In this document: in pieces, positions 51,533 through 58,889 of the stretch
Numbering within the stretch: the first letter of the stretch is position 1
How the letters are laid out: every line of letters starts with the position of its first letter
Assembly: GCA_019456165.1 (NCBI GenBank)
Contig: VRUJ01000014.1
Coordinates: forward strand, 1-64,000
Source: Chloroflexota bacterium
GTDB taxonomy: Bacteria; Chloroflexota; Anaerolineae; Anaerolineales; UBA11579
Length of the DNA stretch: 64,000 bases
Direction of reading: 5' to 3'
Notes under the pieces: generated by a model
The model's database searches: none
What the model saw: only the letters and a program-made list of their open reading frames with translations
What the model was told of the DNA's origin: nothing
Made by a program: the position numbers and the translations under genes

Positions 51533-52735
51533 ATGTCAAAAGTATTCAAAGCTTATCATCCCGGTCTAAACCGTCATGCGGCCATAAAAGTATTAAACCC
51601 AGAATTATCGTCAGATATGGATTTTGTCAATTTATTTCATATTGAAGCAAAAAGTTTAGCCCATCTAAACCATCCGAATATAGTTAAAGTATATGATACT
51701 GGTGTACAACGTCAACTATTGTACATTGTTATGGAATATATTAATGGCAAATCGTTAAGGTTATTGATCGATGAGTACCATGAGGCTCAAGAAACAATCC
51801 CTATCAGAGAAGCGGTTCTATTTATTAAATCTCTTGGAAATGCTCTTTCTTATGCCCACAAACTAAAAATCATCCATCGTGATGTAAAGCCAGGTAATGT
51901 CTTAGTAGAGAAAACTGGGCGAGTTGTTCTGGCGGATTTCGGTCTTGCCAAGGTGATTACAGGTGCAACGGAAATGCTTACCGGTACTTTGCGGGGCGCT
52001 CCAGCATATATGGCTCCCGAAGTATTAAAGTTTAAAATGTCACACTCCATGAGAAACTATGGAGATGTATATTCCCTCGGGGTGATATTTTATGAACTAA
52101 CCGTTGGAAAACGCCCCTACAATTCAGAAAAACCCGTCGCAGTAGCTTTAAAACAAATCAATGAGCCATTACCCAAACCTAGATCGGTGACGAAAAGCGT
52201 TCCGAGAAAGGTTGAAACTATAATTATTAAAGCCCTGGAGAAGAACCCAGCTAAACGCTATAAAAATATGGCAGCTATGGTTGGTGCGATCGAAAAACTT
52301 AAAGAAGCTAAAACCACACATTTACCCACAGGTACTTTAGGCCTTTCTGATAAACTTGCACTAGAAGATTTGTTGTCAGTCACCCCTACAAAACTGCAAA
52401 TAACGTTGCATTTTTTACGCACCGGACAGATTCTGGAACTTCCTTATGGTACTGAATTTTCCATCGGGAGGAAAAACAAAAATCCACCCAATCGACCTGA
52501 CATCGATCTTACACCCTTTAAAGGTTTTGAATGGGGTATTTCCAGATCGCATGCCAAACTTATCGTAGGAAAAAGAGATGTAAAGCTAGTTGATTTGAAA
52601 TCAACAAATGGGACCTGGTTTGATGGTAAAAAGTTGAAGCCGAATAAGCCATTAACCTTAAATCACGGAGATACTATCAGTCTGGGAAAGCTGCAAATCC
52701 AAGTGCTAATATATATGGAGCGATTAGCCCGGTAG
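51533..52735 (+). CDS. FHA-fused Ser/Thr protein kinase, 5'-damaged
   Basis: This 400-residue Hanks-type kinase domain (residues about 1-250) has a C-terminal FHA domain (LPYGTEFSIGR, SRSHAKL, STNGTW). Catalytic residues are intact: AAIK, HRDVKPGN, ADFGLAK and MAPEV. The only usable start, ATG at 51533, falls inside the glycine-rich loop, because an in-frame TAA interrupts the upstream coding sequence. The product would lack strand 1 and half of the ATP-binding loop. It is a tandem paralogue of the next gene. Either it is a recent pseudogene or the TAA is a sequence error. Confidence 0.8.
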   Translation: MSKVFKAYHPGLNRHAAIKVLNPELSSDMDFVNLFHIEAKSLAHLNHPNIVKVYDTGVQRQLLYIVMEYINGKSLRLLIDEYHEAQETIPIREAVLFIKSLGNALSYAHKLKIIHRDVKPGNVLVEKTGRVVLADFGLAKVITGATEMLTGTLRGAPAYMAPEVLKFKMSHSMRNYGDVYSLGVIFYELTVGKRPYNSEKPVAVALKQINEPLPKPRSVTKSVPRKVETIIIKALEKNPAKRYKNMAAMVGAIEKLKEAKTTHLPTGTLGLSDKLALEDLLSVTPTKLQITLHFLRTGQILELPYGTEFSIGRKNKNPPNRPDIDLTPFKGFEWGISRSHAKLIVGKRDVKLVDLKSTNGTWFDGKKLKPNKPLTLNHGDTISLGKLQIQVLIYMERLAR

Positions 52736-52927: not shown

Positions 52928-54199
52928 GTGGGAAATTATTTTGACAACATAATTGGAAGAAAGTTTGGCAATTATTCCGTAACTGATATTCTTGGCACTG
53001 GGATGTCGTCAAAAGTGTTCAAGGCGTATCATTCAAGTCTGAAATACCATGCATCAATAAAAGTTTTTAATCCACAGGTATCTTCAGATTCTGAATTTGT
53101 CAAATTATTTCAAATTGAAACCAAGAAATTTGCGCAAATCAACCATCCAAATATTGTAAAAATATATGATGCTGGAGTTCAAAATGAACTCGTTTACATA
53201 ATTACGGAATATATTAGTGGGAAGTCGTTGGAGAGATTGATTGAAGAGGGGAAAAATAATGGAGAAAAGATACAAGTAAAACAAATAGTGAATTTTGTAA
53301 AATCTGCCGGTCGCGCTTTATCTTATGCTCACATCCAAAATGTCTTGCACGGTAATGTTAAACCTAGCAATATTTTAGTTGAGAAAACGGGACGAGTTGT
53401 ATTGACTGACTTCGGAATAGCCAAAATGACTATGGATAACAAAGATAAGATAACAGGCAAGTTGGTGAACACTCACCCTTATCTCGCACCAGAACTAAGC
53501 GCCCGAAAACCTGAGAGTAAAAAAGCAGATATATATTCCTTAGGAGTTATATTTCACGAATTGATAGTGGGTCAAGTTCCCTATAGTTCGAAAAAAACAA
53601 ACGAATCATTGGAAAAGCAAGGCGAAGACACAAAAACACAATCCTCATCCATGTTGAAAAATGTTCCAGAAAGATTTACTACAATAATTCTTAAGTCCAT
53701 AGATAAAAAACCTAAAAATCGATATAAAAACATGGCAGCGATGGTTGCCGATATCGAAAAACTTAAGGAGGCTATCCCCGAACAATTAGCCATTGCAACC
53801 TCAGAGTTAGTTGAACCTCCACCTCCTGAAGATATTTCCCCAGACAAATCAACAGATTTGCGCGTTATCCTGCATTTTTTAAAGACAGGACAAATTCTCG
53901 AACTTCCCTTAGGCACAGAATTTTCTATTGGAAGGAGAAATGAAAATCCACCCGTTTTCCCTGATATCGACTTATCACCATATAAGGGGTATGTCTGGGG
54001 TATATCCAGAATGCATGCCAAGCTTATCGTAGGAGAGGGATCAGTTAGAATAGTTGATTTGAACTCAACTAACGGTACATGGATTTATGGCAAGCAATTA
54101 GAACCCAATGTACCCTTTCGATTGAGGCATGGGGCTATTGTCAGTTTGGGGGATTTACATACTCAGGTGCTTATTTACAAGGAGCGAAACATCCAATAG
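52928..54199 (+). CDS. FHA-fused Ser/Thr kinase homologue, probable pseudokinase
   Basis: This 423-residue paralogue of the previous gene has an intact N-terminus (GTG start, IGRKFGNYSVTDILG) and C-terminal FHA domain (FSIGRRNENP, SRMHAKL, STNGTW). The catalytic HRD motif is replaced by HGN (LHGNVKPSN), losing the catalytic Asp, while the Lys (ASIK), DFG and APE motifs remain. It can probably bind ATP but not transfer phosphate efficiently. It may be a pseudokinase scaffold, possibly regulating the active paralogue. Confidence 0.85.
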   Translation: MGNYFDNIIGRKFGNYSVTDILGTGMSSKVFKAYHSSLKYHASIKVFNPQVSSDSEFVKLFQIETKKFAQINHPNIVKIYDAGVQNELVYIITEYISGKSLERLIEEGKNNGEKIQVKQIVNFVKSAGRALSYAHIQNVLHGNVKPSNILVEKTGRVVLTDFGIAKMTMDNKDKITGKLVNTHPYLAPELSARKPESKKADIYSLGVIFHELIVGQVPYSSKKTNESLEKQGEDTKTQSSSMLKNVPERFTTIILKSIDKKPKNRYKNMAAMVADIEKLKEAIPEQLAIATSELVEPPPPEDISPDKSTDLRVILHFLKTGQILELPLGTEFSIGRRNENPPVFPDIDLSPYKGYVWGISRMHAKLIVGEGSVRIVDLNSTNGTWIYGKQLEPNVPFRLRHGAIVSLGDLHTQVLIYKERNIQ

Positions 54200-56737: not shown

Positions 56738-57340
56738 ATGAGGCGGATTGGAATATTGACTGGCGGGGGGGACGCGCCAGGATTAAACGCAGTTATCCGC
56801 GCGGTCGTAAAAACGGCCATTAACCACTACGGTTATGAGGTATTGGGGATATTAGATGGCTTTGATGGTTTATTAGAAGAAAGTGGCTTGATGCCGTTGA
56901 CTCTGGAAAGTGTACGCGGCATCTTGCCGCGTGGTGGGACTATATTAGGGGCGGCCAATCGCGGAAATCCCTTTGCGCGTGAAACTGAGCAGAATGGCCA
57001 ATTGGTAGTTGAAGATACCTCAGATGAATGTATCGCCCGGATTAATGAATTAGGCATAAACGCTCTAATAGTTGTAGGGGGTGATGGCACCCTAAGAATC
57101 GCTAAGGAAATGTATGATAAAGGTGTCCCTACGATTGGTGTGCCCAAGACGATTGATAATGATGTCGGTGGAACAGAAGTCACTTTTGGATTTGATACTG
57201 CCTTAAACATAGCGATGGAGGCGATTGACCGGCTGCACACTACCGCAGAGTCGCATCACCGTGTGATGATCTTAGAATTGATGGGCCGGGACGCAGGATT
57301 CATCGCGCTACATGCTGGGGTTGCTGGGGTGCGGATGTGA
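56738..57340 (+). CDS. pfkA: 6-phosphofructokinase, N-terminal part (frameshifted)
   Basis: This is the first 200 codons of phosphofructokinase, the committing step of glycolysis. It has ILTGGGDAPGLNAVIRA, the ATP/PPi loop VVGGDGTL, the catalytic PKTIDNDVGGTE and LMGRDAGFIALHAG. An AGGAGG precedes the ATG. The frame breaks at GCTGGGGTGCGGATGTGA: adding one G to the run of four restores GGADVILIP and the family alignment. The rest of the enzyme continues in another frame in the next entry. The cause is either a homopolymer sequencing error or a real frameshift. Confidence 0.9.
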   Translation: MRRIGILTGGGDAPGLNAVIRAVVKTAINHYGYEVLGILDGFDGLLEESGLMPLTLESVRGILPRGGTILGAANRGNPFARETEQNGQLVVEDTSDECIARINELGINALIVVGGDGTLRIAKEMYDKGVPTIGVPKTIDNDVGGTEVTFGFDTALNIAMEAIDRLHTTAESHHRVMILELMGRDAGFIALHAGVAGVRM

Positions 57341-57831
57341 TCTTGATCCCGGAAATTCCATTTTCTTTCGAAGCGATTTGTCAAAAAGTGCAAAAAAGAA
57401 AAGAAAGTGGGCGCAAATTCAGTATTTTTGCCGTCTCTGAAGGAGCACATCCTAAAGGGGAGCAGAAGGTTTTCCGGCGGGCTGAAGATAATCTCTACGT
57501 CGCCCGTTTGGGTGGAATTGGCCAGGTAGTGGGTAAGTTTGTAGAAAGTGTGTGTAAATCTGAGACACGCGTTACAGTCCTAGGACATCTCCAACGCGGC
57601 GGAACACCCACAGCTTTCGATCGTTGGTTAGCTACACGGTACGGGGCTGCGGCGGTCCGGGCCGCGGCTGCCAACAATTTTGGGCATATGGTGGCATTGC
57701 ATGATGCTAAGATTATCGAGGTACCCCTCGTAGACGCACTAAAAGAACCGAAAAGAGTTGATGTGCATGGAGATGCAATTGCCACGGCGCGGGATTTAGG
57801 CATATATTTAGGGGATGAAGTAGAGGAGTAA
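57337..57831 (+). CDS. pfkA: 6-phosphofructokinase, C-terminal part (frameshifted)
   Basis: This 164-codon continuation of pfkA opens with a GTG overlapping the upstream TGA (GTGA). It begins ILIPEIPF and contains VSEGAHPKG, LGHLQRGGTPTAFDR and the final helices of the family. Together with the N-terminal part it makes a normal length of about 365 residues. The GTGA overlap could allow coupled translation as two chains, but no split PFK of this type is known to me, so a single-base deletion or sequence error is the simpler reading. Confidence 0.88.
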   Translation: MILIPEIPFSFEAICQKVQKRKESGRKFSIFAVSEGAHPKGEQKVFRRAEDNLYVARLGGIGQVVGKFVESVCKSETRVTVLGHLQRGGTPTAFDRWLATRYGAAAVRAAAANNFGHMVALHDAKIIEVPLVDALKEPKRVDVHGDAIATARDLGIYLGDEVEE

Positions 57832-57867: not shown

Positions 57868-57898
57868 CAGAAAGCCGCTTATTAGAAGCGGCTTTCTG
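57868..57898. terminator. Bidirectional terminator between pfkA and the small ORF unit
   Basis: CAGAAAGCCGCTT and AAGCGGCTTTCTG form a perfect 13-bp stem with a 5-nt loop. Both strands show TTTCTG at the stem base with only a modest T content after it. It ends pfkA on the plus strand and could end the small minus-strand transcript. Confidence 0.7.
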
Positions 57899-57908
57899 AC
57901 TGTTTAGA

Positions 57909-57954
57909 CGCTGTGGCACTCTATCGTTCGAAAACGGGGAGGTGTGCCACAGCG
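57909..57954 (-). ncRNA. Hairpin overlapping the end of the small ORF
   Basis: On the minus strand CGCTGTGGCAC and GTGCCACAGCG form a perfect 11-bp stem around a 24-nt loop that contains the ORF's stop codon. Its left arm shares bases with the segment that masks the Shine-Dalgarno, so the two structures exclude one another. Confidence 0.6.
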
Positions 57955-57974
57955 CCTGTTTTGGTACTACACAT
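57921..57974 (-). CDS. 17-codon small ORF with its own promoter and switchable RNA structure
   Basis: The peptide is MCSTKTGAVAHLPVFER. It has a perfect AAAGGAGGTG Shine-Dalgarno 8 nt before the ATG, a consensus promoter about 80 bp upstream (TTGACA-17-GATACT) and a strong hairpin beyond the stop. The Shine-Dalgarno can pair with codons 9-13 (GGAGGTG with CACCTCC, extended by TGCC with GGCA). A competing 11-bp hairpin uses codons 7-10 and sequence after the stop. It is antisense to no gene until pfkA. The peptide is hydrophilic, so a membrane toxin is unlikely. A regulatory leader-type peptide or dual-function sRNA is possible. Confidence 0.55.
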   Translation of the reverse strand: MCSTKTGAVAHLPVFER

Positions 57975-58052
57975 AGGCAACACCTCCTTTACGTTGAGAT
58001 GGCGGAATCTACCAGTTTCTATGTAAGGATTTCATATTAATGGTATATAAAA

Positions 58053-58081
58053 AGTATCACACAGGTTGGAGAATGTGTCAA
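58053..58081 (-). promoter_or_regulatory. Promoter of the small ORF unit
   Basis: Minus-strand TTGACA (full consensus) is separated by 17 nt from GATACT, which is preceded by TGT (extended -10). The predicted start near 58046 leaves a 5' leader of about 72 nt before the 17-codon ORF. Confidence 0.72.
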
Positions 58082-58092
58082 TGGATGAGAGC

Positions 58093-58779
58093 TTAATTTG
58101 ATAGGTTATTTAGCTCGTCGTCTGATACGTCCAGTTCTATCAACTCGCCGGTGACAACAAATATGGTACGTTCACAGATGTTGGTTACCCTATCTGCCAT
58201 GCGCTCAAGGTTATGCGCCGCCCACTGCAAGTGATTTGCCCGATCAATAGTTTCTGGATCAGAAATCATAAAGGAGATCAATTCGCGAGAAACCTGGTTG
58301 AACAGATCATCTATTTGATCATCTTCTTTGGGAATTGCCAGTGCTTGCTTATCATCGGAATTGACGAAAGCTTGAATGGCACGGTGCAGCATATCAGCTG
58401 TGATTTCTGCCATGCGCGGCAGGTCGACTAAAGGTTTAAGCAGGAGATCTTCACCCATATTAATGTTAATACGGGCGATTCCTTTGGCATAATCTCCCAT
58501 ACGTTCAAGCTCGCTGCTGATATCCAGGATAGCGGCTAATATTCGCAGGTCGGTGGCCATTGGCTGTTGGCTGGCAATTATTACAAGGCATTGGGTTTCA
58601 ATATCGAAACGCTTGTCATTTATCTGTTGGTCATTGGCATATATACTTCGGGAGGCTTTGATATCGCGTGTACGCAAAGATTCGACGGCTGAAATTGTAG
58701 CTTGCTCCACCATACCGCCTAAATCTACAACATCATCCAATAGTTCTTTAATTTTGCGTTCGAGAGTTTCTCTCGTCAT
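58093..58779 (-). CDS. phoU: Phosphate signalling protein PhoU
   Basis: PhoU is an all-helical protein that links phosphate transport to the PhoR kinase. The ATG at 58779 has GAGGTG upstream (the track's TTG is four codons earlier) and gives 228 residues. Two repeats of the PhoU three-helix bundle show the metal-binding motifs SSELERMGDYAKGIARI and AAHNLERMADRVTNICE. No pstSCAB or phoR gene is nearby, so it is separated from its usual operon. It is transcribed alone, upstream of the small ORF unit. Confidence 0.94.
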   Translation of the reverse strand: MTRETLERKIKELLDDVVDLGGMVEQATISAVESLRTRDIKASRSIYANDQQINDKRFDIETQCLVIIASQQPMATDLRILAAILDISSELERMGDYAKGIARININMGEDLLLKPLVDLPRMAEITADMLHRAIQAFVNSDDKQALAIPKEDDQIDDLFNQVSRELISFMISDPETIDRANHLQWAAHNLERMADRVTNICERTIFVVTGELIELDVSDDELNNLSN

Positions 58780-58889
58780 GGTGCACCTCAAGCTATATTA
58801 TACGCAAATTATGGAGAAAAATGTATATTCGCTAAAGGGGAATTTTAGGGGAAAACCCAAAATTTTTTCACTACTTTATTATTGAATAA

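Follow-up and report, generated by a model that had tools for sequence, protein, structure and literature searches.

A conserved short ORF among mutually exclusive helices: a candidate ribosome-operated RNA switch in Chloroflexota

Introduction

Several described RNA systems resemble the element reported here. Leader-peptide attenuators of the trp/erm type harbor a short ORF behind a strong Shine–Dalgarno (SD) sequence, together with mutually exclusive helices that are chosen by ribosome position. The aapA/IsoA and hok/Sok type I toxin mRNAs are small and stand-alone, with the SD closed by upstream and in-ORF anti-SD sequences, and aapA3 in particular is a stand-alone short-ORF mRNA carrying successive anti-SD elements (PMC6733600). 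The alpha-r14/cuckoo sRNAs (NfeR1) contain anti-SD motifs in hairpin loops and are defined by three hairpins that all carry a CCUCCUCCC loop (PMC10746234). In Bdellovibrio bacteriovorus HD100, APsRNA2 (535,188–535,321, plus strand, 134 nt) is one of eight attack-phase sRNAs, with an RPKM of 8,869 in attack phase compared with 204 in growth phase, a 43-fold increase; that report appears to present it only as an attack-phase sRNA, with neither an ORF nor relatives described (PMC3627812).

Here we describe a short minus-strand transcription unit in a 64,000-nucleotide stretch of Chloroflexota DNA (contig VRUJ01000014.1, positions 1 to 64,000; hereafter, the window). As judged from its sequence, the element is closest in form to leader-peptide attenuators without a regulated gene. 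Like these, it combines a short ORF, whose translation is predicted, with alternative helices around it, as indicated by conservation of both the pairing and the ORF. Unlike these, it occupies a separate locus and ends in its own terminator, and no regulated gene was found directly downstream in the same transcript in our analyses of the terminators of 96 homologues and of 38 downstream loci. In contrast to the type I toxin mRNAs, the element has neither an antisense antitoxin promoter nor a hydrophobic, conserved peptide and is present class-wide as a single copy. It also differs from the alpha-r14/cuckoo sRNAs in that it contains, rather than three anti-SD hairpin loops, one anti-SD segment only, which is part of a conserved ORF and has the SD of the element itself as its pairing partner.

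Results

Parts of the element in the window

The original prediction had described a promoter with an extended −10, a leader of ~72 nt, an SD and a 17-codon ORF, all on the minus strand, and each is present. Its list of parts was correct but left out two features, a 14-bp hairpin enclosing the stop codon and an anti-SD inside the ORF. The features of the region are as follows.

58093–58791, minus strand: phoU (PF01895); the element starts just downstream on the same strand.
58053–58081, minus strand: sigma-70 type promoter TTGACA-17-GATACT with a TG-extended −10 (sequence scan); TTGACA at 58081–58076, 17-nt spacer, end of GATACT at 58053, 10/12 matches.
57996–58003, minus strand: segment 1, GCCATCTC (consensus GCYAYYYY), in the leader; within class Anaerolineae it can form P1 with the SD (40/40 aligned sequences pair).
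57975–57990, minus strand: segment 2, AAAGGAGGTGTTGCCT, a perfect SD plus conserved spacer (sequence comparison).
57921–57974, minus strand: short ORF of 17 codons, peptide MCSTKTGAVAHLPVFER, with stop codon TAG at 57923–57921 (translation; homologues).
57938–57944, minus strand: core of segment 3, the anti-SD CACCTCC within the ORF; pairs with the SD (P2) and adjoins the P3 5′ arm (P2 covariation, duplex energies).
57906–57957, minus strand: P3 hairpin, 14 bp, around the stop codon; 5′ arm 57957–57944, 3′ arm (segment 4) 57919–57906 (folding, compensatory changes).
57868–57898, minus strand: 13-bp terminator-like hairpin at the end of the unit, possibly bidirectional with the convergent pfkA (folding).
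56738–57831, plus strand: pfkA (PF00365), convergent with the element and the next gene after it.

The SD, AAAGGAGGTG, is separated from the ATG by 6 nt (8 nt if counted from GGAGG). The whole window transcript folds with an energy of −68.4 kcal/mol compared with −41.4 for shuffles (z −7.1), and P1 is absent from the single-sequence MFE structure. The terminal stem is real, as had been predicted, but in this copy it lacks a U-tract on the minus strand, whereas most relatives harbor a proper U-tailed terminator. The window copy thus has the SD, short ORF, P2, P3 and terminal stem of the Chloroflexota family, the stem without its U-tract, and the element is present as a single copy in its own genome. 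In a promoter scan of the region, chance would account for 5.3 promoter-like sites in every 3 kb, so the window promoter is no proof on its own. It is the joint occurrence of promoter, SD and terminator, which the original prediction had judged unlikely by chance, together with conservation that establishes the unit.

Near 57325, a run of G (GCTGGGGTGCGG) shifts the frame of pfkA by one base, so that the gene reads as two overlapping ORFs (56738–57340 and 57337–57831); this may be a sequencing error in the homopolymer or the mark of a recently formed pseudogene. Also on the plus strand, 51533–52735 and 52928–54199 encode two neighboring proteins that resemble each other and appear to be fusions of a Ser/Thr kinase with an FHA domain, probably the outcome of a tandem duplication.

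Distribution in Chloroflexota

BLASTN and a regular-expression scan identified the element in 17 of the 24 genomes of its own family, mostly directly after phoU and elsewhere in three of them (G007, G010, G013). A covariance-model search, the check that had been proposed for the unit, extended this distribution considerably. Model A1/R1, built on 15 family sequences, matches 200/301 genomes of the order (133/174 good-quality genomes; 96/112 genera), and a second model, R2, matches 228/396 genomes of the class. Both ORF and structure are kept in the relatives, which bears out the view that annotation had overlooked a stand-alone transcription unit. Among named genomes, an exact DNA pattern also placed the element in Caldilineae, Ardenticatenaceae, Herpetosiphon, Chloroheliaceae, Chloroflexaceae, Kouleothrix and Thermomicrobiales. 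The third model, R3, built from Chloroflexia and Thermomicrobia sequences only, matches ~58 Chloroflexota genomes outside the class with E below 1e-6. That a model derived solely from other classes also recovers the window element itself (E 1.4e-7) supports a single family across classes. Almost every genome with the element contains one copy.

When compared with the 4227 families of Rfam release 15, the window element falls below every curated threshold, and a permissive search also returned no relative. Rfam searches of 11 loci, most of them holding homologues, gave rRNA and tRNA matches only, and we found no description of the Chloroflexota RNA family in the open-access literature. Collectively, the comparisons indicate a real and widespread structured RNA, previously unlisted, in which a short ORF is conserved.

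Several classes of match were rejected. A repeat or mobile element was discarded on the basis of the single copy in the window's genome and in most others. Additional opposite-strand R1 matches in two loci (L059, L066), which arise because P3 is self-complementary, were not accepted as copies. Pattern-scan matches in Azospirillum, Glutamicibacter, Tsukamurella and other proteobacteria and actinobacteria were taken as chance, those inspected being inside coding frames. In Bacillota there were eight weak matches in 160 genomes; six loci were inspected, of which some were ordinary gene starts and none was clearly the element. One Bacillota locus (L322, genome G1222) contains a 10-codon ORF, MENWVQEKQG, behind GGAGGTGATGCCTATG, with a long stem that encloses a second hairpin, and is either unrelated or very distant.

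Transcription signals and neighboring genes

Among 96 model-defined homologues from many families, which also underlie the ORF statistics below, a promoter with at least 10/13 matches is found upstream in 85% and a U-tailed terminator follows the element in 92%, compared with 2.5% and 11%, respectively, of shuffles that ignore the relatedness of the sequences. The −10 usually ends 35–70 nt before the SD, and the family RNAs are predicted to be ~120–210 nt long. A consensus sigma-70 scan for antisense promoters found one in 2 of the 96 homologues, hence not conserved.

In the window no same-direction gene follows the unit, as originally noted, the next gene being the convergent pfkA. Across 38 loci, the nearest downstream ORF shares the strand of the element in 19 cases and has the opposite orientation in the other 19, and the families encoded are unrelated (NDH-2-like oxidoreductase, B12-binding, HNH, AIRS, 3HCDH, response regulator and PfkB). 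The even division of strands and the unrelated families therefore argue that the element is not the leader of one gene. A function linked to phoU or pfkA was likewise rejected, as that adjacency is kept in one family and lost elsewhere. The element is thus predicted to act alone and not on a neighboring gene. Local gene order does recur within some Anaerolineae of other orders: the convergent neighbor is an HNH endonuclease (VLVLNATYEPL..) in L126, L128, L129, L132 and L136, and an AIRS-family gene lies downstream of the element in L121, L124, L134 and L139. This is lineage-specific synteny.

Conserved pairing

The conserved pairing involves four segments: segment 1 (GCYAYYYY) in the leader, found in Anaerolineae only; segment 2, the SD and spacer; segment 3, inside the ORF; and segment 4, just after the stop codon. 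P3 (3:4) shows compensatory changes in 9/13 pairs, and neither its compensatory-pair count nor the combined P1 and P3 covariation score was reached by any of 500 shuffles, which, like those for P2, ignore the relatedness of the sequences. In P2 (2:3), 95.8% of cells are paired, with 23 double-change cells compared with 9.2 in shuffles. The spacer GUUGCC covaries with GGCAAC or GGCAGC in the ORF, GAUGYC with GGCAUC and GAUGCCC with GGGCAUC, the spacer being GATGYC or GATGCCC outside family f1. P2 duplex energies relative to shuffled ORFs give a mean z of approximately −4.4 in Anaerolineae and −4.0 in Chloroflexia and Thermomicrobia. The evidence for P1 (1:2) appears weaker: although all 40 sequences pair, 6/8 pairs vary only as Y opposite G, that is, by one-sided C/U changes. 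Helices 2:3 and 3:4 share bases and largely preclude one another. Since segment 3 is complementary to both segment 2 and segment 4, 2:3, in which the SD would be closed, and 3:4, in which it would be released, are alternatives, with an additional 1:2 helix in class Anaerolineae.

The short ORF

The start codon is ATG in 93 and GTG in 3 of the 96 homologues and lies 12–17 nt from the start of GGAGG in all of them, while the ORF varies from 9 to 22 codons. A stop codon in the ORF frame falls between the P3 arms in 93/96 homologues, compared with 12 and 1 for the other two frames, a statistic in which the P3 5′ arm is confined to the ORF; the rule is broken in a few members (L136, L146, L147). 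Within the family, indels from the start codon to P3 are multiples of three. Depending on the lineage, however, one and the same RNA segment reads AVASLL, AVASPP, RRITS, RRHL or GITVE, although start codon, stop codon and pairing are retained, and variability at third codon positions does not exceed that at the first two. On these counts, which make no correction for relatedness, selection appears to act on initiation, the point of termination and RNA pairing, and not on the peptide. The proposal that the peptide is the product is not supported by its frame relative to the RNA, its residues or its codon-position pattern, none of which is typical of a conserved peptide.

Similar architecture in Bdellovibrionota

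The pattern scan also matched a Bdellovibrionales bin (L172). When 99 Bdellovibrionales genomes were searched for the SD-spacer-start pattern, ten matches were obtained, one an ordinary gene and nine stand-alone ORFs of 13–21 codons; a hairpin follows each of the nine, and the loci that were inspected also have a terminator. R3 added several more candidates in Bdellovibrionota. Divergent stand-alone ORFs of 13–21 codons with terminators, located behind AAAGGAGGTG(A/G)TGCCCATG, are seen in L270, L273–L279 and L305–L315.

L270, at 535,209 on the plus strand, falls inside the reported APsRNA2 coordinates (PMC3627812), from which we infer that its genome is HD100 and that L270 coincides with APsRNA2. 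Like the Chloroflexota element, APsRNA2 is a stand-alone transcript with a maximal SD, a short ORF (15 codons), a hairpin over the stop codon and a terminator; unlike it, its P2 is weaker. In the Bdellovibrionota members generally, P2 has a mean z of −1.3, with 3/13 below −2, while P3 is below −2 in 8/13. The sequences indicate the same architecture in the two groups, which, given the weak P2, may have a convergent origin.

Discussion

Conservation of the SD, the ORF and the mutually exclusive hairpins, but not of the peptide, suggests that the element is an RNA switch operated by ribosomes and not a peptide gene. We consider it probable, as the best reading of the data, that this switch is self-contained and that ribosomes on the short ORF determine its conformation. 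Without a ribosome, P3 would be the most stable helix and the SD would be open to the 30S subunit. Binding of a 30S to the SD and the passage of ribosomes as far as the stop codon would melt segment 3 and so choose which helix forms. When the window sequence is folded with the 30S site masked, P3 is favored; when the region under a terminating ribosome is masked, P2 is favored, and in this sequence P2 would then close the SD. The conformation would thus depend on whether ribosomes occupy the short ORF. The distance from the anti-SD to the stop codon is only 3–6 nt in some Anaerolineales, where a terminating ribosome would mask P2 as well, so the P2-at-stop state is not general. The conformation of the RNA, and probably its stability or interactions in trans, would report on and respond to translation initiation, with the ORF serving as a moving part and not as a product; the output may be RNA abundance, binding of ribosomes or a target in trans.

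Alternatively, the element could be a micro-peptide gene, with a peptide of 14–20 residues as the product and the RNA structure only tuning its translation. Start, frame, stop and spacing are indeed kept, and motifs recur: SA(A/V)A(S/T)LL in Anaerolineales, GIT.EV in Chloroflexia and Thermomicrobia and DIT.AEV in Bdellovibrio. Yet these residues coincide with the nucleotides needed for P2 and P3, all three frames are used for this RNA segment among other lineages, and third codon positions vary no more than the others, which makes this explanation unlikely. Still less likely is a trans-acting sRNA that would present the anti-SD CCUCC in its P3 loop and thereby block SDs on other mRNAs. The Anaerolineae P3 loop does contain CACCUCC or CCCUCC, as in the alpha-r14/cuckoo anti-SD loops (PMC10746234), but the segment is GGGCAUCAC in Chloroflexia and Thermomicrobia and often not C-rich in Bdellovibrio, so a general anti-SD is not common to the family; moreover, the best match of the segment is the SD and spacer of the element itself.

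The 1:2, 2:3, 3:4 layout about a short ORF is that of a classical leader-peptide attenuator. A role as leader of a neighboring gene is nevertheless largely refuted and very improbable, given the strong terminator after P3, the opposite-strand orientation of the next ORF in half of the 38 cases and its variable family. We give slightly less credence again to a type I toxin mRNA of the AapA or Hok kind, in which structure would control translation: successive anti-SD elements on a stand-alone short-ORF mRNA would fit, as in aapA3 (PMC6733600), but the peptides are neither hydrophobic nor conserved, antisense promoters occur in only 2/96 homologues, and one chromosomal copy is present across whole classes.

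If the RNA is indeed a self-contained switch, translating the short ORF itself, and not the peptide or a downstream gene, would be what selection preserves. A structured RNA that is kept as a single copy throughout entire classes of a major phylum, has no Rfam family and escapes gene callers likely does something basic. A broader and rather doubtful possibility is an RNA class in at least two phyla that targets the ribosome: a mini-mRNA that combines an almost full complement of the 3′ end of 16S rRNA with a mimic of this end inside its ORF, and that might sense free 30S subunits or initiation capacity and, in cells growing slowly or not at all, exert feedback on the translation machinery. APsRNA2 of Bdellovibrio, as a published attack-phase transcript, offers a culturable and genetically tractable testing ground.
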